Below are positions 4,077 to 60,368 of a stretch of 64,000 nt of DNA, piece by piece; position 1 is the first letter of the stretch; each line of letters starts with the position of its first letter. The translations under genes were made by a program, and so were the position numbers. The stretch covers positions 2,765,806 through 2,829,805 of the forward strand of contig NZ_OZ007039.1 in NCBI RefSeq assembly GCF_963931675.1. Direction: 5' to 3'. The notes beneath the pieces are model-generated. The model saw only the letters and a program-made list of their open reading frames with translations. It had not been told where the DNA came from and searched no databases. Source of the stretch: an uncultured Alistipes sp. GTDB taxonomy: Bacteria; Bacteroidota; Bacteroidia; Bacteroidales; Rikenellaceae.

Positions 4077-5084
4077 TCAGTTTCCTCCGGAGACCACGAT
4101 GAGCGCCAATCCCAGGATGAACAGCACGAACATTCCAGTCAGGAGCCGATGGACCTTGGGACCGGTACCTTTGAACTCCTTCCAGACAAATACGCCCCAC
4201 AATGCTGCAATCATGGGTGCCCCCTGTCCCAGTGCATAAGAGACAGCAGCTCCGGCTTTCCCGGCCGCAATGTAGCTGAACAATGTTCCCAGAGCCCAGA
4301 TGCATCCGCCCAGGATTCCGACCAGATGGGTGGAGAAACTGCCCCGAAAATAACTCCCATAAGCGACCGGTTCTCCGGAGAACGGATATTTCATCACCAG
4401 TGTATTGAATACGAAATTGCTCAGGAAAACACCGACGGAGAAGAGAACAAAGGCACTGTACGGAGTTGCCAGTCCGGCTTTCGGTGCCGCGAAGTTTGTC
4501 AGATCCATGGCATCTGCCACGAAACGATAGAAAAACGACATTAAAATACCTGCCAACAACGCCAGGATCAGCCCTTTACTTTTTGAATGGCGATCGACAC
4601 CGTCCTGATTGTGTTTCGAGGCAATGCCATTGCAGACAACGGCCAAGACGACAAGGAGAACGCCCGCAAAGAGGAATACGGGATCACCTTTCGGGGCTCC
4701 GATGTAATTGATGATAACCCCCAACACCAGTGCGATTCCCACACCCAGCGGGAAGGCCACGGCCATGCCGGCCAAAGACACGGATGCCGAAAGCAGGATG
4801 TTCGAGGCGTTAAAAATCACACCGCCCAGGATGGCACTGCCCATTTTCCCGGGATCGATCTGTCCGATATCGGTCAAAAAACTGCGTCCTTCCGTTCCGA
4901 CGCTGCCGAGCGTAAAGGCCGCAAGGAGCGAGAAAATTAACATTCCAATCGTGTAATCCCAATAGTAAAGTTCATAGCGCCAGGTATTGGCAGCCAGTTT
5001 CTGCGTATTTCCCCAGGAACCCCAGCACAACATCGTCACGATGCAAAACACGACGGCCAGCGGATAACTTTCTACGATAAACAT
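4077..5084 (-). CDS. DMT-superfamily sugar permease, RusT-like (probable ribose/nucleoside uptake)
   Basis: 335 residues with about ten hydrophobic segments. The N-terminus (LCWGSWGNTQKL) and the segment GVIFNASNILLSASVSLAGM are typical of the GRP/ureide-permease branch of drug/metabolite transporters. The first gene upstream encodes a nucleoside hydrolase and a ribokinase follows further upstream, the combination known from the Bacteroides ribose-utilisation (rus) locus, where a permease of this kind carries ribose across the inner membrane. That match of gene content is the basis for the substrate guess. A rhamnose substrate is a possible alternative given the GH78 in the same operon. It is the last gene of the operon, 23 bp after the hydrolase. 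Confidence 0.75.
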   Translation of the reverse strand: MFIVESYPLAVVFCIVTMLCWGSWGNTQKLAANTWRYELYYWDYTIGMLIFSLLAAFTLGSVGTEGRSFLTDIGQIDPGKMGSAILGGVIFNASNILLSASVSLAGMAVAFPLGVGIALVLGVIINYIGAPKGDPVFLFAGVLLVVLAVVCNGIASKHNQDGVDRHSKSKGLILALLAGILMSFFYRFVADAMDLTNFAAPKAGLATPYSAFVLFSVGVFLSNFVFNTLVMKYPFSGEPVAYGSYFRGSFSTHLVGILGGCIWALGTLFSYIAAGKAGAAVSYALGQGAPMIAALWGVFVWKEFKGTGPKVHRLLTGMFVLFILGLALIVVSGGN

Positions 5085-49550: not shown

Positions 49551-49713
49551 TTTTTTACTCGATTTTTTCGCAAAAATAAATATTTATCGTTATCTTTTTG
49601 TCGAAAAGTACGAAATCGAACCTTTCGGCGAATTCGTCCGACGCGGAGGCCTTTTCCGTCGACGCCGAAAAGGGGATATTTGCATCGGAAAACAAACGGA
49701 AATTAGAATCGAT

Positions 49714-50730
49714 ATGAAACGTATGCTTTTTGCCGCCGCACTCCTGTTGGGAGGCGGTTGTGCCTCTTCCGGAACCTCTTCCGCACCGTCCGGACCCCTG
49801 AGCGTCGGAACCCTTGTCGTCGAACCGCGGGCCGACATCGATGCCGGACGCTATGTCGGTGTCATCGAGGAGACGGAGGCTGCGGCCCTCAGTTTCCCGA
49901 CTTCCGGGACCATCCTCCGGATGTCGGCCGAAGAGGGTGACAGGGTCCGTCGCGGTGACCTGATCGCAGAACTCGATCCGACGTCGGCACGCCAAACCTT
50001 CGAAGCCACCGAGGCTGCGCTCGGGCAGGCCCGCGATGCCTGCGCACGCCTGCGGCAGCTCCACGATGCCAACAGCCTGCCCGAAGTCCAGTGGATCGAG
50101 GCCCAAACCCGCCTCCGGCAGGCCGAGGCGGCCTTCGGAATCGCCCGGAAAAACCTCGATAACTGCAAGCTCTACGCCCCCTTCTCCGGGGTCGTCGGAA
50201 CGAAACGGGCGGCGGTCGGCGAAACGGCCATGCCCGGCGTACCGGTCGTGACCCTTCTGGAAATCGGCTCCGTGAAGGTGCGCTTCTCGGTCCCCGAGCA
50301 GGAGATCGCTGCCATAAGCGCCGACAGCCGGGTGACCCTGCGCGTTCCGGCACTGGGTGATTCGCTCTTCACGGCCGGGCCCGTCGAGAAGGGGGCCGTG
50401 GCCAATCCCGCCGCACATACCTATGACGTCCGGGCCGTGCTGCCCAACCCCGGTGCAAAACTCCTCCCCGGGATGGTCTGCCACGTGACGGTCGTACCCG
50501 CCGGGGCTGTCGAGGAGATTGCCGTACCGGTTCGGGCCGTGCAGCAGGCCGGTGACGGCAGCCGTTTCGTCTGGTGTGTCAAGGGCGATTCGGTCGTGCG
50601 GGCCGAGGTCCGCACGGGACGCTTCGTCGGAAACGAGGTCGTGATCGAGTCCGGGCTCCGGGCCGGTGAGCGCATCGTGACGGACGGTATGCAGAAAATC
50701 GGTCAGGGTTCCAAAGTCTCGCTGCGATGA
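49714..50730 (+). CDS. RND efflux periplasmic adaptor (membrane fusion protein)
   Basis: 338 residues from the ATG at 49714. Lipoprotein signal (LLLGGGCASS, Cys near 13), then a lipoyl/beta-barrel layout: LSFPTSGTILRMSAEEGDRV, a helical hairpin (about 85-130), LYAPFSGVVGTKRAAVGETA and a C-terminal MP domain. It connects the inner-membrane pump to the outer-membrane channel. The pump gene overlaps its stop by four bases (ATGA). Confidence 0.93.
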   Translation: MKRMLFAAALLLGGGCASSGTSSAPSGPLSVGTLVVEPRADIDAGRYVGVIEETEAAALSFPTSGTILRMSAEEGDRVRRGDLIAELDPTSARQTFEATEAALGQARDACARLRQLHDANSLPEVQWIEAQTRLRQAEAAFGIARKNLDNCKLYAPFSGVVGTKRAAVGETAMPGVPVVTLLEIGSVKVRFSVPEQEIAAISADSRVTLRVPALGDSLFTAGPVEKGAVANPAAHTYDVRAVLPNPGAKLLPGMVCHVTVVPAGAVEEIAVPVRAVQQAGDGSRFVWCVKGDSVVRAEVRTGRFVGNEVVIESGLRAGERIVTDGMQKIGQGSKVSLR

Positions 50731-53700
50731 AAGCCTCGAACAACATCATAGCCTGGTCCATGCGGAATTTCCGCATCACCTTCCTGATCATAGGCTGCCT
50801 TTTCGCCTTCGGGGTCTATGCCCTGGTGCACATCCCCAAGCAGGAGTTCCCCGAATACACCATCCGCCAGGGCGTTGTCGTCGGACTCTATCCCGGCGCT
50901 ACGACCGAGGAGGTCGAGGAGCAGTTGGCAAAGCCCCTCGAACAGTTCCTGATGACCTACAAGGAGGTCAAGCGCAGCAAAACGACCTCCACGTCGCAGA
51001 ACGGCATGTGCTACGTCATGGTCGAGCTGAACGACGACGTCAACAACAAGGACGAAGTGTGGTCGAAGATCAAGCACGGACTGGCCTCCTTCAAGGCGCA
51101 GCTGCCTGCCGGAGTGGTCGCCCTGGTGGCCAACGACGACTTCGGGGACACCTCGGCGCTGCTCATCACGCTGGAGTCCGATACGCGCTCCTACCGCGAA
51201 CTGAAGGAGTACATGGATGAACTGAGCGACCGCCTGCGCCGCATCGAGTCGGTCTCGAACCTCCGCCCCTACGGCGTGCAGCAGGAGCAGATCTCGGTCT
51301 ACGTCGACCGCGAGCGGCTGGCCGCCTACGGCATCGGCGAGAAGGTCGTCTCGTCGGCCCTTGCCGCGCAGGGGCTCACCCCGCTGGGCGGTTCGGTGGG
51401 CAACGCCGAGACCGAAACCCCGATCCATCTCGCACCGTCGCTCGCCGGGGAGCACGAGGTCGCCGAACAGATCGTCTGGAGCGATCCCGACGGCCATGTC
51501 CTCCGCGTGAAGGATGTGGCGCGCGTCGTGCGCGAATACGACGACCCGGACAGCTACATCCAGAACAACGGACACCGCTGCGTGCTGCTCTCCATGGAGA
51601 TGCAGGCCGGGAACAACATCGTCGAGTACGGCAAGGAGGTCGACGGAGTGCTGCGGCAGTTCGTCGAGGAGGTGCTCCCCGCGGATGTCTCCGTCGAGCG
51701 CATCGCCGACCAGGCCAAGGTCGTCGGCGACTCCGTACACTCGTTCCTGAGGGACCTCTTTGTCTCGATGGCCATCATCATCGTCGTGATGATGATTCTC
51801 TTCCCGTTCCGTTCGGCGCTCGTCGCCGCCATCACCATCCCCGTCTCGACGTTCATCTCCGTCGGGGTGATGTACCTTTTCGGGATACCCCTCAATACGG
51901 TGACACTCGCCGCGCTGATCGTCGTCCTCGGCATGATCGTCGACAACTCGATCGTCGTCATCGACGGATACCTCGACCTCCTCGGACGCGGCCACTCGCG
52001 CTGGTATGCCGCCGTCGAGAGCGCCCGCGAATTCTTCCCCTCGCTGCTGCTGGCTACGGTCTGCATCTGCATGATCTTCTACCCGCTGCTCTTCACCATG
52101 ACGGGCATGTTCCTCGACTTCCTGAACTTCTTCCCCTGGACGGTTACGATCAACCTGATGGTCTCGCTGCTGTTGGCCGTGCTGGTGATCCCCTTCCTGG
52201 AGGTGCTCATCATTCCCGCCGTCCAGCCCCGCAGGGAGGACCGGGTGTCGTTGACGGACCGCGTGCAGAACTTCTACCGCCGCGTCCTGGCCTGGACATT
52301 CCGCCACGGATGGCTCACCATCTCGATGGGCGTCGCTTCGGTGGTCATCGCCCTGGCGATCGTTCCGCTGCTCAAGTTCCGCATGGTGCCCTTCGCTGAC
52401 CGCGACCAGTTCGCCGTGGAGATCTACCTCCGGTCCGACGTCCCGCTCGAACGGACCGCTGCGGTGGCCGACTCCGTATACCGGGTCCTGCATGACGACG
52501 AGCGCGTGAAGTCCGTCACGTCGTTCGTCGGATGCTCCTCGCCCCGGTTCCAGATGAGCTACGCCCCGCAGATGGCCGGGAAGAACTACGCCCAGTTCAT
52601 CGTCAATACGGCGTCGGTCAGTGCCACCGAGGAGATCCTCGACGAATATGCCGATGCCTGGGCCGACCGTTTCCCCGAAGCCTATGTCAAGTTCAAGCAG
52701 CTCGACTATCAGAACGTCCCCTCGCTGGAATTCCGCTTCTACGGCGACAATCTCGACTCGCTGCACGTGGTTGCCGAACGCCTGATGGAGCGGATGAGGG
52801 AGATGCCCGAACTGCAGTGGGTTCACTCCGATTACGAGGACCCGCGGGCGATTGCCGAAGTGGCGCTCGACCCCGTGACCGCCCCGCAACTGGGTGTTAC
52901 CCGCGCCCTGACTGCTGCCAATCTGGCCCTCGCGGCCGGAGATGTCGCCGTGGGAAGCATCTGGGAGGGCGATTACAAACTCCCCGTCGTGCTGAAGAAC
53001 GACCCCCGCAACGGCGAACGCTCGCTGTCCGACATCGGCGATACGTATGTCTCGTCGCTCGTCCCGGGTGTGAGCGTCCCCCTGCGGCAGATCGCCACGG
53101 TCGAGCCCCGCTGGAGCGAAACGAAAATCATCCACAGAAACGGAATGCGCTGCATCACCGTCTCGGCCGACCTCAAACGCGGGGTGAATGCCATGCGCAT
53201 GACCTCCCGGATCCAACAGGTCGTCGATAACGAACTGACGGTCCCGGCCGGGGTTACGACGGAGGTTGGCGGCGCCCGCGAGTTCGATGCCGAGACGCTT
53301 CCGCCCATCATTTACGGATTGAGCATCTCGCTGGTCATCATCTTCTTCTTCATCCTTACGAATTTCCGCAAGTTCGGCATTTCGCTGGTCATCATGGCTG
53401 CCATGTCGCTCTGTCTGTTCGGCGCGATGGTCGGGCTGTGGATTGCCAACTTCACCATCGGGCTGACCTCCGTGATGGGATTTATCACGCTGCTCGGCAT
53501 GATCGTGCGCAACGTCATCCTCATGTACCAGCACGCCGAGGACAAACGCAAGGTCTGCCACTGGTCGGCTCGCCTGGCCGCCTACGATGCCGGAAAGCGG
53601 CGCATGGTCCCCATCTTCCTGACAACGGCCACGACCGCCGTGGGTGTCGTGCCCATGATGCTCGGCAGCAGTACCTTCTGGGCGCCGGTCGGCGTGACGA

Positions 53701-53777
53701 TCTTCGCCGGAGGCATCGGGTCGCTGATCCTCGTGGTGACGATTCTTCCGGTTCTCTATTCCAAAATCTACAAGTGA
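50727..53777 (+). CDS. RND-family efflux pump, inner-membrane subunit
   Basis: 1016 residues, standard for AcrB/MMPL-type pumps: twelve membrane helices in two sets of six with two large periplasmic loops. GMIVDNSIVVIDGYL in helix 4 carries the proton-relay Asp, and VMGFITLLGMIVRNVILMY in helix 11 is the matching block. The first loop contains YPGATTEEVEEQLAKPLEQF, typical of the family. Whether it handles drugs, bile acids or metals is not clear; no metal-specific motif was noticed. It is joined to the adaptor by a four-base overlap and to the channel gene by a one-base overlap. Confidence 0.95.
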   Translation: MKASNNIIAWSMRNFRITFLIIGCLFAFGVYALVHIPKQEFPEYTIRQGVVVGLYPGATTEEVEEQLAKPLEQFLMTYKEVKRSKTTSTSQNGMCYVMVELNDDVNNKDEVWSKIKHGLASFKAQLPAGVVALVANDDFGDTSALLITLESDTRSYRELKEYMDELSDRLRRIESVSNLRPYGVQQEQISVYVDRERLAAYGIGEKVVSSALAAQGLTPLGGSVGNAETETPIHLAPSLAGEHEVAEQIVWSDPDGHVLRVKDVARVVREYDDPDSYIQNNGHRCVLLSMEMQAGNNIVEYGKEVDGVLRQFVEEVLPADVSVERIADQAKVVGDSVHSFLRDLFVSMAIIIVVMMILFPFRSALVAAITIPVSTFISVGVMYLFGIPLNTVTLAALIVVLGMIVDNSIVVIDGYLDLLGRGHSRWYAAVESAREFFPSLLLATVCICMIFYPLLFTMTGMFLDFLNFFPWTVTINLMVSLLLAVLVIPFLEVLIIPAVQPRREDRVSLTDRVQNFYRRVLAWTFRHGWLTISMGVASVVIALAIVPLLKFRMVPFADRDQFAVEIYLRSDVPLERTAAVADSVYRVLHDDERVKSVTSFVGCSSPRFQMSYAPQMAGKNYAQFIVNTASVSATEEILDEYADAWADRFPEAYVKFKQLDYQNVPSLEFRFYGDNLDSLHVVAERLMERMREMPELQWVHSDYEDPRAIAEVALDPVTAPQLGVTRALTAANLALAAGDVAVGSIWEGDYKLPVVLKNDPRNGERSLSDIGDTYVSSLVPGVSVPLRQIATVEPRWSETKIIHRNGMRCITVSADLKRGVNAMRMTSRIQQVVDNELTVPAGVTTEVGGAREFDAETLPPIIYGLSISLVIIFFFILTNFRKFGISLVIMAAMSLCLFGAMVGLWIANFTIGLTSVMGFITLLGMIVRNVILMYQHAEDKRKVCHWSARLAAYDAGKRRMVPIFLTTATTAVGVVPMMLGSSTFWAPVGVTIFAGGIGSLILVVTILPVLYSKIYK

Positions 53778-55075
53778 TGAAAACTCCTTTCATATATCTG
53801 TTCCTCGGGGCGGGCCTGCTGTGCACCGTCCCGGCTGCGGCCCGGACGCTGACGCTCGAAGCGTGCCGCGAGGCTGCCGCGGAGCACAACCGCACGCTGC
53901 AAAACAGCCGTTTCGATCTGGAAGCCGCACTCCAGACCCGGCGTGAAGCCTTCACGAACTACTTCCCGCAGATCTCCGCTTCGGGCGGCGTCTTCCAGGC
54001 CCAGCACGGGCTGGTACAGGCCGATTTCGGGGTGACGATCCCCCAGATGGGGACGATGAATCTCCCGATCTCGATGGTCAAGCGCGGCGCGTTCGGCAGC
54101 ATCACGGCCGTGCAGCCCGTGTTCGCAGGACTGAAGATCGTCAACGGAAACAAACTGGCCCGGTTGGGCGAAGAGGTCGGGCAGCTCCAGGTGCGGAAGA
54201 CCGAAGCCGAGGTCCGCGAGCAGACCGATACCTATTTCTGGCAGATCGTCTCGTTGAAGGAGAACCTCTCGACGCTCGATGCCGTTGAGCGGCAGTTGGA
54301 TGAAATTCACCGTCAGGTCGAACTCTCGGTCAAGGCGGGGCTCGTGACGGCGAACGATCTGCTGCGGGTCGAGTTGCGGTGCCAGGAGATCGCTTCCGAC
54401 CGGCTGAAGGTCGAGAACGGGCTGAAGGTCTCGAAACTCCTCCTGGCCCAGCATATCGGCGTCGACTGGCACGGTTTCGACATCGAGATGCCCGCGCTGG
54501 CCGAACCCGAAGCGCCGGAGCGTTTCTACGTCCCGGTGGAGGAGGCCCTCGACCGCAGGGCCGAGTACCTGCTGGCTGAAAAGAACGTCGAGGCGCAGAA
54601 GTATCAGAAGCGCATGGAGCGAGGCAAACGCCTGCCGACGGTCGGCGTCGGGGCCGGGTATCTCTACTACAACATGACGGAGAAGGATGTCGATGACGGG
54701 ATGGTTTTTGCGCAGGTGTCGGTGCCGATCTCCGAGTGGTGGGGCGGGGCCCACGCCCTGAAGAAGGCCCGCATCCGCGAGCAGCAGGCCGAGAATGACC
54801 GCCTGCAGGCCCGCGAAATGCTGGTCGTGGAGATCGAGAAGACCTGGAGCGAGGTCCAGGAGTCCTATGCCCAGATCCTGCTGGCCCGTCGTTCGGTAAC
54901 CTCCGCCACGGAGAACCTGCGCCAGAACCGCAACTTCTACGAGGCCGGTACCGCTCCGCTGACCGATCTGCTCGATGCCGAAACGCTCTATACCCAAAGC
55001 TGCAACGACCTGACGTCGGCCTGTGCCGCCTATCGCACGTCGCTGGCCCGCTACATGCGGGTCACCGGACGGTAG
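53777..55075 (+). CDS. TolC-family outer-membrane channel of the RND pump
   Basis: 432 residues from the ATG at 53777, whose A is the last base of the pump stop (TGATG). Sec signal (IYLFLGAGLLCTVPAAA), then two OEP repeats of alternating coiled-coil and barrel strands (about 30-210 and 240-430; NRTLQNSRFDLEAALQTRRE, NFYEAGTAPLTDLLDAETLY). It completes a tripartite efflux system with the two genes upstream. Confidence 0.93.
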   Translation: MKTPFIYLFLGAGLLCTVPAAARTLTLEACREAAAEHNRTLQNSRFDLEAALQTRREAFTNYFPQISASGGVFQAQHGLVQADFGVTIPQMGTMNLPISMVKRGAFGSITAVQPVFAGLKIVNGNKLARLGEEVGQLQVRKTEAEVREQTDTYFWQIVSLKENLSTLDAVERQLDEIHRQVELSVKAGLVTANDLLRVELRCQEIASDRLKVENGLKVSKLLLAQHIGVDWHGFDIEMPALAEPEAPERFYVPVEEALDRRAEYLLAEKNVEAQKYQKRMERGKRLPTVGVGAGYLYYNMTEKDVDDGMVFAQVSVPISEWWGGAHALKKARIREQQAENDRLQAREMLVVEIEKTWSEVQESYAQILLARRSVTSATENLRQNRNFYEAGTAPLTDLLDAETLYTQSCNDLTSACAAYRTSLARYMRVTGR

Positions 55076-55173
55076 GGGAGCCGCGCGTGGAGTGCCGGAT
55101 GCGGAGGGACGGCCCGGAGCCGCACCTCCGCATCTTTTTATTTCGGGTGCGATTTCGTATCTTTGCCGCGGGT

Positions 55174-55734
55174 ATGCTGCTGCGCATCAAAAATATGGTT
55201 TGCGACCGTTGCGTAATGGTTGTCCGCACCGAGTTGGAGCGGGCGGGGTGTCGCGTGCTTGCCGTCCGCCTGGGCGAGGCCGAGGTCGAGGGCGGATTGT
55301 TGCCCGGGGAGAAGGCCCGGCTGGCCGAAAGGCTCGAAGCCCTGGGGTTCGAACTCCTCGAAGACCGCCGTGCCCGGATGATCGAGGCCGTCAAGCGGGC
55401 CGTGATCGAACTCGTCCGCGCGGAGGAGGTGATGCCCGACGTGCGCCTCTCGGAATACCTGCAGGAACGCCTGCGGGTCGATTACCGGCAGATCAGTACG
55501 CTCTTTTCCGAAACCGAGGGCCGGACCGTAGAGAAGTATTTCATCGCCCAGAAGATCGAACGTGTGAAGGAACTGCTCGTCTACGACGATCTCTCGCTCG
55601 GCGAGATCGCCTTCCGGCTCGGCTACTCCAGCGTGGCGCATCTCAGCGCCCAGTTCAAGCAGGTGACCGGGATGACCCCCAGCCGCTACAAACTCATGGG
55701 GTCGGCCGGCCGCCGCACCATCGACTCCGTATAG
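55174..55734 (+). CDS. HMA-like/AraC-type regulator, probable metal sensor
   Basis: 186 residues. A short N-terminal domain with CxxC (MVCDRC, residues 8-13) resembles a heavy-metal-associated fold. It is fused to an AraC helix-turn-helix (about 85-180; SLGEIAFRLGYSSVAHLSAQ, FKQVTGMTPSRYKLMG). The ATG at 55174 is supported by the conserved opening MLLRIKNMVCDRC. TATCTTTG (55158-55165) ends only eight bases before it, so the message is nearly leaderless. The next gene encodes a metal permease with a CNHC HMA domain, and a 21-bp direct repeat lies in front of it, so this protein probably controls that gene. Confidence 0.85.
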   Translation: MLLRIKNMVCDRCVMVVRTELERAGCRVLAVRLGEAEVEGGLLPGEKARLAERLEALGFELLEDRRARMIEAVKRAVIELVRAEEVMPDVRLSEYLQERLRVDYRQISTLFSETEGRTVEKYFIAQKIERVKELLVYDDLSLGEIAFRLGYSSVAHLSAQFKQVTGMTPSRYKLMGSAGRRTIDSV

Positions 55735-55887
55735 TTCCCGGGGCAGGGCCGGTGCCGGTGCCGATTCGGTCCCTGTCCTTCCTCCGCTCTCCCGTCTGCG
55801 CCGTCCGGCTTTCCCGTTTCGGGCCGTTCGCACGCCACACCCCTCCCGCCCCGGGGTGTTTGCACCGTTTCCCCGCCCCTCATCCCT

Positions 55888-55952
55888 GAAAAATCCTGTA
55901 ACGGAAACCGAAAAATCTGTAACGCCGAAGCCCTCCCCGCGCGCTACCTTTG
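55888..55952 (+). promoter_or_regulatory. Candidate operator repeats and promoter of the metal permease
   Basis: Two near-identical copies of GAAAAATC(C)TGTAACG at 55888-55903 and 55910-55924; the TGTAACG cores (55897 and 55918) are exactly 21 bp apart, two helical turns, as expected for AraC-type direct repeats. The second copy covers the -33 region of TACCTTTG (55945-55952), which lacks a consensus -33, a layout typical of activator-dependent promoters. Confidence 0.6.
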
Positions 55953-55973
55953 CAGCAGAAAAACCGATCTGTC

Positions 55974-57230
55974 ATGCAGGAGTATATCATGCCGTTCGTC
56001 GGGCTGCTCAACGAAATGTCGCCCTATCTGTTGTTGGGATTTCTGATCGCCGGGGTGTTGCACGCCTTCGTGCCGGGCCGTTTCTATGCCCGCTATCTGT
56101 CCCGCAACGACTTCCGTTCCGTGGCGTGTGCCGCACTCTTCGGCGTGCCGCTGCCGCTCTGCTCCTGCGGCGTCATCCCCACGGCCATGGCCATGCGCCG
56201 CGAGGGAGCTTCGCGGGCCGCCACGGTTTCGTTCCTGATCGCCACGCCCCAGACCGGTGTCGACTCCATCCTGGCAACCGCCGCACTGCTCGGCCTGCCC
56301 TTCGCCCTGATCCGTCCCGTCGCGGCTTTCGTGACGGCGTTGTTCGGCGGGATGCTGGTCGGACGGGTCGTGCGCCGGAGCGAAGCGGTGGCTGAAAGCA
56401 CGGCTGCGGAGTCCGAAAGTCTCCGACGGCCGTTCCTCGAAAAGTGCCGGGAGGTATTCCGTTACGGGTTCTCCGGGATGATGCAGGACATCGGCCGCTG
56501 GCTCCTTGTCGGACTGCTGCTCGCCGGGGCCATTACGATCTTCGTTCCCGATGACTTCTTCGCCGTCACGGGACAACATCCCCTGTTGGAGATGCTGCTC
56601 GTACTCGGGCTTTCGATCCCGATGTACCTCTGCGCTACGGGGTCGGTGCCCATTGCCGCGGCGCTGATGCTGAAGGGGCTCTCGCCCGGGGCCGCTTTCG
56701 TGCTGCTGATGGCCGGGCCCGCCACCAATATCGCCGCCATACTCGTCGTCGGGAAGGTCCTCGGGCGCAGAACCCTGTGGCTCTATCTCGCCGCCATCAT
56801 CGTCGGAGCCGTGGGTTTCGGATTGGCAATCGATACGCTGCTCCCCGCCGGGTGGTTTCAGCCCCGGGCGTTTGCCGCCTGTGCGGAGCATTGCACCGAT
56901 GCGGCTGTCCCCTGGTGGAAGGCGGCATCGAGCGTGCTCTTTCTGCTGCTGCTCACTGCGGCGCTTGTCCGCCGGTTCCGGAAATCCTCAAACGACAAAC
57001 TCGATAAACCTATGGAAAAACGTTTCAGAATCGAAGGCATGATGTGCAACCACTGCAAGGCCCATGTCGAACGAGCCTTGTCCCGGGTCGAAGGGGTGAC
57101 GGCCGTGGAGGTCGACCTCGCGGCGGGTATCGCCCGTGTCGAGGGGAAGTTCGAGACCGAAAGTGTCCTCTCCGCGGTCCGTGAACTGGGATACGGATGT
57201 TCGGAACAGGGGACGGTCAACGCACGATAA
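55974..57230 (+). CDS. SO_0444-type Cu/Zn efflux permease with C-terminal HMA domain
   Basis: 418 residues. An ArsP/DUF318-type permease (about 1-330) with two sets of membrane helices. The first set holds LCSCGVIPTAMAMRREGASR and ATPQTGVDSILATAALLGLP, the second has SVPIAAALMLKGLSPGAA. A Cys/His pair (CAEHC near 306) and an HMA domain follow from about 350, with CNHC as the metal ligand. It exports thiophilic or divalent metal ions from the cytoplasm. The start at 55974 sits 22 bp after the promoter box. Confidence 0.88.
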   Translation: MQEYIMPFVGLLNEMSPYLLLGFLIAGVLHAFVPGRFYARYLSRNDFRSVACAALFGVPLPLCSCGVIPTAMAMRREGASRAATVSFLIATPQTGVDSILATAALLGLPFALIRPVAAFVTALFGGMLVGRVVRRSEAVAESTAAESESLRRPFLEKCREVFRYGFSGMMQDIGRWLLVGLLLAGAITIFVPDDFFAVTGQHPLLEMLLVLGLSIPMYLCATGSVPIAAALMLKGLSPGAAFVLLMAGPATNIAAILVVGKVLGRRTLWLYLAAIIVGAVGFGLAIDTLLPAGWFQPRAFAACAEHCTDAAVPWWKAASSVLFLLLLTAALVRRFRKSSNDKLDKPMEKRFRIEGMMCNHCKAHVERALSRVEGVTAVEVDLAAGIARVEGKFETESVLSAVRELGYGCSEQGTVNAR

Positions 57231-57521: not shown

Positions 57522-58169
57522 ATGGCTGACAACTATCTGGGCCGCAAGATGGAGGAGTACCGGGCCCGAAAGGATGCCCCGGTCCGCCGCCCGGCGATGA
57601 CCCTGACGAAACTCCTGTTGCGCAACCGCAGCTACAGGGGGTATGACCCCCGCTTTGAGGTCCGCGAGGACCAGCTTCGAAGCCTCATCGAGGTCAATAC
57701 CCGGATCCCTTCGGCGCGCAACCAGCAGGTCTTGCGTTTCCGGCTGGTGCTTGCCGACGAGGCTCCGCGGCTGCTGCCGCTTATCCGCCTGGGCGGGGCG
57801 CTCCCCGAACTGCACCTGCCGTTGCCCGGTACCGAACCCAATGCCTTCATCGTCATCTGCGCGACCGTTGCCGAGGACCGCTATGTGGATATCGACCTCG
57901 GGATCTCAGCCCAGAGCATGTTGCTGCGGGCTGCCGAGATCGGGCTGAACGGCATCTGCATCGGGGCGTTCGACCGGACGCGGGTCCGCGAGGTGCTTCG
58001 CCTGCCTTACGATCCGCTGCTGATCCTGGCCGTCGGGAAGGGGGCCGAACGGATCGAACTCGTGGAGATCGCCGCCGAGAAGAGCCATGCCTATTACCGG
58101 CGTGAGGGCGTGCACTACGTGCCGAAAGTCCGGCCCGACGACCTGCTGATCGCCCCGAGTTCCGACTGA
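57522..58169 (+). CDS. Nitroreductase-family protein
   Basis: 215 residues from the ATG at 57522. FMN-dependent reductase fold: LLRNRSYRGYDPRFEV (the SxRxF-like opening), NTRIPSARNQQVLRFRLV (flavin contact) and DIDLGISAQSMLLRAAEIGL-N. A TAATTTG box close to consensus precedes it (57493-57499). The physiological substrate cannot be told. Confidence 0.88.
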   Translation: MADNYLGRKMEEYRARKDAPVRRPAMTLTKLLLRNRSYRGYDPRFEVREDQLRSLIEVNTRIPSARNQQVLRFRLVLADEAPRLLPLIRLGGALPELHLPLPGTEPNAFIVICATVAEDRYVDIDLGISAQSMLLRAAEIGLNGICIGAFDRTRVREVLRLPYDPLLILAVGKGAERIELVEIAAEKSHAYYRREGVHYVPKVRPDDLLIAPSSD

Positions 58170-59346: not shown

Positions 59347-60368
59347 ACCCGTTGGCGGAATTAAAGGCATAAAACTTTTATGAAGAAAAAGTTGCGCATA
59401 TTATTGGTGTTTAGTAAATTAGAGGTGTCTAAACATCTGATTTACATATACCGTATGCACAACTTATACGCAATATTCGCAAAATTTCTGGACATCTGCA
59501 AACAAAAAGCAGGAAATTTAGTCAATGAACAAGAGAATGTGCCCCGTCCGGGTGTTGTCCCCAAGTTTTCCGACCTTGAGGTGGTCGCTCTGAGCATGGC
59601 ATCCGAAGCGGTCGGAATAGACAGCGAGTCCCTGTTGTTTTCCAGATTGAAGGAATACGGGGACAAAATGCCGAACCTTATATCCCGGAGGCAATACAAC
59701 GACAGGCGCAAGTTTACGGCACAGCTCTGCAGGCTCATCCGGGAGAGAATCGCCAATGAGATGGATGGCGGCGAAGATTATTTCTGCATTGACTCCAAGC
59801 CGGTAGAGGTATGTCGGATAGCACGCGCCAAGCGTTGTACGATGGGCGGGAATGACTACCGGAAAGCCCCGTCCTACGGATATTGTGCCTCACAAGGTAC
59901 ATACTACTATGGGTATAAGCTGCACGCCGTCTGCGGGTTGAGCGGGGTCATACACTCTTTCGACCTGACGAAGGCGGGCGTGCATGACATCAATTACCTG
60001 AAGGATGTCAAGGTCGATTATTCCAACTGCACTGTGATTGGAGACAGGGGCTATATCAGTGCCGATGTGCAACTGGACCTTTTTGAGACGGCCCATATTC
60101 GTTTGGAAGTGCCTTACCGGAGAAACCAAAGGGACTGGAAACCTGTCTTCCATCCATTTGCCAAAGCCAGGAAAAGGATAGAAACCTTGTTCTCACAGCT
60201 ATGTGACCAGTTTATGCTCATACGCAATTATGCGAAAGACACGGATGGGTTGTTCGCCCGGATTATCGGGAAAATCAGCGCACTTACAATCCTACAATAC
60301 ATTAACTACAAAAACAACAAGCCCATTGGAAGAGTCAAGTATGCGCTGACTTAATTCCGCCAACGGGT
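59347..60368 (+). mobile_element. IS982-family insertion sequence, apparently intact (1022 bp)
   Basis: Perfect 18-bp terminal inverted repeats (ACCCGTTGGCGGAATTAA at 59347-59364 and its complement at 60351-60368) starting with ACC as usual for IS982. The flanks carry a 7-bp duplication, TGTAATT, at 59340-59346 and 60369-60375, within the family's range. It encodes one DDE transposase. A relic of the same element is at 17977-18216. Confidence 0.96.
59455..60354 (+). CDS. IS982-family transposase
   Basis: 299 residues from the ATG at 59455; an ATG at 59380 is also in frame, but MHNLYAIFAKFLDICK is the natural start. DDE domain: first Asp in DYFCIDSKPVEVCRIARAK, second in VIGDRGYISADVQL, and a downstream Glu in KARKRIETLFSQL. 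No frameshift or stop is seen, so it should be active. It ends three bases inside the right inverted repeat. Confidence 0.95.
   Translation: MHNLYAIFAKFLDICKQKAGNLVNEQENVPRPGVVPKFSDLEVVALSMASEAVGIDSESLLFSRLKEYGDKMPNLISRRQYNDRRKFTAQLCRLIRERIANEMDGGEDYFCIDSKPVEVCRIARAKRCTMGGNDYRKAPSYGYCASQGTYYYGYKLHAVCGLSGVIHSFDLTKAGVHDINYLKDVKVDYSNCTVIGDRGYISADVQLDLFETAHIRLEVPYRRNQRDWKPVFHPFAKARKRIETLFSQLCDQFMLIRNYAKDTDGLFARIIGKISALTILQYINYKNNKPIGRVKYALT

Follow-up and report, generated by a model that had tools for sequence, protein, structure and literature searches.

An AraC-type regulator encoded in an Alistipes genome is likely to be a metal-responsive activator, whose HMA domain would sense a metal, probably Cu(I), and which would act via a compact, conserved operator on an SO_0444-type target gene, as judged from sequence comparison and a structure model. 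The locus comprising regulator, operator and permease is situated in a 64,000-nucleotide stretch of DNA, here termed the window, from a single-contig genome of 3.38 Mb with a completeness of 99.87%. The domain make-up, the conservation and fixed geometry of the operator, its linkage to the regulator family and the genes faced by the sites were established by computation; feature coordinates are compiled in Table 1. The initial annotation had proposed a metal regulatory pair, in which a metal-bound AraC protein activates a metal exporter, and the present analysis supports this model on comparative grounds.

Table 1. Features of the regulator-permease locus and the upstream operon (positions refer to the window).
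Feature	Position	Strand	Basis
Adaptor gene of RND efflux operon	49711-50730		
RND pump gene	50727-53777		
TolC-like gene of RND efflux operon	53777-55075		
Probable intrinsic terminator, 10-bp stem GATGCGGAGG / CCTCCGCATC then TTTTT	55098..55143	+	read from sequence
TATCTTTG, Bacteroidota-type -7 box of regulator gene	55158..55165	+	sequence
HMA-AraC regulator, 186 aa	55174..55734	+	HTH_18/HTH_AraC above Pfam cut-offs
N-terminal HMA-like (Atx1/CopZ) domain, residues 1-63	55174..55362	+	profile matches, model, fold matches
C-D-R-C putative metal site, residues 10-13	55201..55212	+	CxxC conservation in regulator family
AraC-type HTH_18 DNA-binding domain, residues 98-173	55465..55692	+	Pfam PF12833, fold matches
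Whole operator as matched by 41-bp matrix	55887..55927	+	score 27.9
Operator half-site 1, AAAATCCTGTAACG	55890..55903	+	direct repeat; kept in relatives
Operator half-site 2, AAAAATCTGTAACG, at -33 position	55911..55924	+	direct repeat; fixed -7 distance
TACCTTTG, -7 box of permease promoter	55945..55952	+	sequence and conservation
SO_0444 family Cu/Zn efflux transporter, 418 aa, fused HMA domain	55974..57230	+	NF033936, PF03773 ArsP_1
Permease C-terminal HMA domain, M-C-N-H-C, CxxC at 57045-57056	57024..57194	+	PF00403

Domain make-up of the regulator and the permease

The regulator matched PF12833 with 65.3 bits (cut-off 33.6), which places it in the AraC/XylS family, and carries the motif MVCDRC at residues 8-13, so that the AraC protein with an N-terminal CxxC domain described in the initial annotation was found as such. 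AraC-type HTH families were the sole matches in Pfam and NCBIfam, where a MerR DNA-binding domain was absent from the regulator. The DNA-binding domain gave fold matches to MarA, AraC and SoxS, and resembles that of these E. coli proteins by both sequence and fold.

Across the family, CxxC is kept in 121 of 122 aligned members, with M8, V9, C10, R12 and C13 each being at least 99% conserved. In a family profile, residues 2-60 matched the HMA domains of CopZ, CopA and ATP7B, and the remainder matched AraC-type DNA-binding domains. The AlphaFold2 model (mean pLDDT 87) predicted a beta-alpha-beta-beta-alpha-beta N-terminal domain, a linker helix and a double HTH. Structural comparison of the N-terminal domain revealed GolB, CopZ, PacS, Atx1 and MerP with Z values of 7.2-7.8; since a Z of 7-8 is modest alone for a ferredoxin-like fold and unrelated folds of this type, such as ACT domains, scored nearly as high, the HMA assignment is carried by the profile matches and the CxxC. 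The curated Pfam HMA profile PF00403 did not match the regulator and matched 7 of 62 family members weakly. As this profile misses most members, the regulators are annotated merely as AraC family; NCBIfam contains no model naming the HMA-AraC family. Profiles and model together indicate that the N-terminus is an HMA-like (Atx1/CopZ) domain fused to an AraC DNA-binding domain.

With Atx1/CopZ chaperones and the HMA domains of CopA and ATP7B, the regulator shares the ferredoxin-like domain and a loop of the MxCxxC type. It differs from Atx1/CopZ in the fusion to a DNA-binding domain, the MVCxRC motif with its invariant Arg, and an HMA domain that is shorter and, in most members, too divergent for Pfam HMA. 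Compared with AraC/XylS activators, the sensing domain is HMA-like instead of a cupin, and the whole protein has 186 aa.

The permease scored 363.7 bits against NCBIfam NF033936 (cut-off 300), which assigns it to the SO_0444 family, and its C-terminal domain matched PF00403 with 59.8 bits (cut-off 24.8). This match includes CNHC, in agreement with the annotated permease with a C-terminal CNHC domain following the AraC gene. Transport of Cu/Zn by the Alistipes permease is predicted to run outward. In Shewanella oneidensis, SO_0444 shares its operon with the gene of a ZntR-like regulator of the MerR type and is needed for growth under Cu/Zn stress, with mutants being sensitive to Zn and Cu (PMC3219624); within the family, Cu/Zn resistance is known solely for this protein. 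While passing the curated cut-off of this family, the Alistipes permease differs from the Shewanella protein in its C-terminal HMA domain and in being paired with an HMA-AraC regulator instead of a ZntR-like MerR protein.

The operator in the permease promoter

Between the two genes, a direct repeat with a start-to-start distance of 21 bp was found, the copies of which read GAAAAATCCTGTAACG and GAAAAATCTGTAACG. The first copy has one extra base between GAAAAATC and TGTAACG relative to the second, and the in-register common unit is therefore approximately AAAATcnTGTAACG. Thus, the two copies and their spacing, as initially described, could be retraced, but the copies are not identical. The -7 box of the permease promoter, of the type TAnnTTTG, begins 27 bp downstream of the first base of the second TGTAACG, placing this copy at the -33 position and confirming the proposed overlap of the repeat with the -33 region.

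With 8 occurrences in the window, where 4.6 are expected, TGTAACG is not a rare motif by itself, as would be in line with a chance repeat in the permease promoter; this explanation has a negligible probability, being refuted by conservation and by the family-wide spacing peak reported below. Another exact copy of the 21-bp pair was absent from the 3.38-Mb genome. When the window was scanned with a matrix built from other loci, leaving out the own locus and near-identical copies, the operator stood out from the next best site in the 64 kb, which scored 7.6. A relaxed search of the own genome yielded ten matches versus 5 + 5 for the reversed control; as the matches besides the operator scored at most 17.2 and none of them showed the -7 geometry, no second target was found in this genome.

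The 41-bp matrix revealed no operator site at the regulator's own promoter and, hence, no sign of autoregulation via that site. The terminator listed in Table 1 probably sets the regulator apart from the upstream RND efflux operon; a shorter form of the hairpin was listed at 55115-55130 by a scan in which terminators were no commoner than in shuffles. An operator copy was not found in the RND operon, which therefore probably lies outside the HMA-AraC regulon; NCBIfam profiles left metal versus drug efflux undecided for this operon. On the 3' side of the permease, a nitroreductase-family gene (57522-58169) has its own promoter-like TAATTTG and is devoid of an operator copy. Further downstream, an ORF at 59380-60354 reads like an insertion-sequence transposase.

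The search for relatives of the regulator covered 101 genomes of the genus, 13 of which were positive, 295 of the order, with 135 positives, and a species-level collection of genomes, of which 80 loci were kept. The permease adjoins the regulator in six Alistipes genomes that are closely related and at one distant locus (L039). Among the former, the intergenic DNA is variable in both length and sequence, whereas the two TGTAACG copies and their 21-bp spacing are kept; the second copy of one locus (L017) is degraded to CGTAATG. The distance from the second copy to the -7 box (TAnCTTTGC) is 27 bp in all seven clade relatives. The absence of repeats at orthologous loci, which had been named in advance as evidence against the regulatory pair, was thus searched for, and the repeats were present with the 21-bp spacing retained.

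The operator across the regulator family

The remaining regulator loci, about 115 in number and corresponding to 890 kb, contained 30 TGTAAC pairs at exactly 21 bp, distributed over 27 separate loci, when no more than a single mismatch per pair was allowed, compared with approximately 3.6 pairs for each other spacing (Poisson about 6e-18, a figure that ignores relatedness). An excess of pairs at 9 bp was rejected as a set of operators, the examples being the regulator's own C-N-R-C codons (TGT AAC CGC TGT). The consensus of the 41-bp matrix is AAATnnTGTAA-n11-AAATnnTGTAAC. Trained on half of the loci, the matrix recovered sites in 43-48 of the 59 loci withheld from training; at the true spacing, it yielded 50-71 sites, as opposed to 0-18 when the spacing was altered by 1-5 bp. 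These figures are somewhat generous because some relatives fall in both halves. Overall, 91 of 118 regulator loci carried an operator site, the remaining 27 having none above the threshold, and 81 of 120 sites were on the same strand and at most 400 bp downstream of the regulator's end. Among 107 good sites, 49 had a strict TAnnTTTG box within 70 bp, which was exactly 27 bp away in 45 cases, 26 bp away in three and elsewhere in one.

Such a base-exact distance is expected of an activator touching the polymerase and is unneeded for blocking, as would be exerted by an apo-regulator sitting on the -33 region until released by metal. Repression of this kind was judged improbable: a site at -33 could indeed block polymerase, and many metal-efflux regulators, e.g., CsoR, CopY and ArsR, are generally known as repressors, but TGTAAC occurs at -33 instead of the TTTG known from constitutive Bacteroidota promoters, and AraC-family activators typically have direct repeats beside the core promoter. 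In araI1-araI2, two direct half-sites are located 21 bp apart beside the core promoter. The layout of the Alistipes operator resembles this arrangement of E. coli AraC, with the difference to AraC/XylS activators that it sits on a -33/-7 Bacteroidota promoter. Activation, therefore, is the preferred reading; we infer class II activation from the fixed geometry, the half-site at -33 and the AraC-type domain.

As a control, CopA-type loci from genomes scored regulator-negative were searched, and a site was found in 3 of 18, compared with the 91 of 118 regulator loci (Fisher p about 1e-6). These three matches would agree with binding of the repeat by a factor other than the AraC neighbour, for example another metal regulator or an ECF sigma factor with TGTAAC as -35 element. 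However, the strongest of them originates from a genome of 79% completeness, whose congener has the regulator, and the sites accompany the regulator gene also at loci with a non-metal gene faced. Furthermore, the -7 box is the housekeeping TAnnTTTG, and a sigma -35 element needs no two copies at 21 bp; the ECF candidate found no support in the promoter geometry, with nothing relevant retrieved by a literature search. Altogether, another binder is very improbable, and the data indicate that the operator is linked to the HMA-AraC regulator family across Bacteroidota, with a fixed spacing and a fixed -7 distance.

The strict 21-bp pattern was also evaluated for genome-wide regulon finding in the 295 genomes of the order. 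It matched in 33 genomes versus 13 for a spacing-22 control, and was weakly richer in regulator-positive genomes (21 of 135) than in negative ones (12 of 160); given this weak split, the matches are mostly chance. Only five of them adjoined a regulator gene, and the pattern was discarded as too loose.

Arrays of TGTAAC with a 21-bp period (TGTAACCGnnGGnnAAAnn) were observed in two genomes of one genus with the regulator not nearby (L244, - strand, ~4792-4918 of the reverse complement; L245:3711-3811; L246:4084-4189). Four loci labelled Gammaproteobacteria (Woeseia, Porticoccaceae and others; L102, L106, L117, L121) carry the regulator and operator-like sites, in three cases before HMA or CopA genes; they may reflect either horizontal transfer or misbinned contigs.

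Genes faced by the operator and the inducing metal

For 122 loci, the genes faced by the sites were sorted by a crude, motif-based procedure, in which some of the entries classed as other are truncated or misframed: CopA-type ATPase, 46; HMA chaperone-like, 21; SO_0444 permease, 8; cupin, 4; B12-radical-SAM-like, 3; other, 9; no site, 31. In most loci, the faced genes thus appear to be metal exporters or metallochaperones, mainly CopA or HMA proteins. One regulator subclade (11 rows, support 100/96; L034, L035, L046, L051, L052, L054, L055) has retained the CxxC and the same 21-bp operator, and the genes it faces are cupin-like and B12-binding radical-SAM-like and do not encode exporters.

From the faced genes and the HMA domain, we infer Cu(I) as the first and Zn(II) as the second candidate metal. 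With the same regulator and operator, the inducer could also be Zn(II), Cd(II), Hg(II), Ag(I) or thiol redox at MVCxRC, which we regard as rather unlikely, albeit the most probable of the alternatives. It is generally known that CPC motifs are also present in Zn-type P1B ATPases, one subclade faces non-transport genes, and GolB and MerP are among the fold neighbours of the N-terminal domain; in addition, SO_0444 responds to Zn too, and the regulator in the Shewanella operon is ZntR-like (PMC3219624). Against a non-copper inducer, the ATPase beside the regulator in seven Alistipes genomes passed the Cu-specific TIGR01511 far above its cut-off (566-595 bits versus 397), and the profile neighbours of the N-terminal domain are Cu proteins.

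In the proposed mechanism, the HMA domain (MVCxRC) of the cytosolic regulator would sense the metal, most likely Cu(I), and the AraC-type domain would bind both half-sites (AAATnnTGTAAC), arranged as a direct repeat with 21-bp spacing. Of these, the one closer to the promoter would replace the -33 element, and RNA polymerase is therefore proposed to need the bound regulator. The single target in this Alistipes would be the SO_0444-type exporter with its own HMA domain, in CopA's place. We further consider it plausible, with less assurance than for the mechanism itself, that the HMA-AraC proteins form a class of their own among cytosolic copper sensors and the general CueR/CsoR equivalent of Bacteroidota, with one operator re-used for swapped effectors, namely CopA, HMA chaperones and SO_0444 permeases. 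Such a role, i.e. copper export being switched on when copper rises, would be like that of CueR, CsoR, CopY and CusR, which belong to different protein families.

AraC regulators, HMA domains, and exporters of the SO_0444 and CopA types are all established kinds of components, but a search of the open literature found no description of a metal sensor that combines an AraC-type protein with an HMA domain, nor of its operator. The phylum Bacteroidota is dominant in gut and soil; for one member, Bizionia argentinensis, a recent survey named no cytosolic copper sensor, and found neither a copper-site protein of the MerR or CopY type nor a regulator beside the copA genes (PMC11213822); this would fit a sensor unrecognised by annotation. 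If true, the presence of such a compact regulator throughout the phylum, with its defined operator, would fill this copper-sensor gap and join the AraC family to metal sensors. Metal-response genes would become predictable, and metal-inducible promoters could be built in gut Bacteroidota, from sequence alone.

Within the genus, five of the 13 regulator-bearing Alistipes genomes, including the own genome, have an SO_0444 permease and no ATPase above the TIGR01511 cut-off, whereas the other eight have an ATPase above it and no SO_0444 permease above its cut-off; some of the 13 genomes are 85-90% complete, and another of the five SO_0444 genomes is 99% complete. CopA was accordingly not found in the own genome despite its near-completeness. 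The five genomes form one clade, which implies one swap event, not five. In this clade, the SO_0444 exporter appears to stand where relatives have CopA, the exporter having changed while regulator and operator stayed. The distant locus L039, which also faces an SO_0444 permease, is placed elsewhere in the regulator tree, and the pairing of regulator and SO_0444 permease, thus, arose at least twice.
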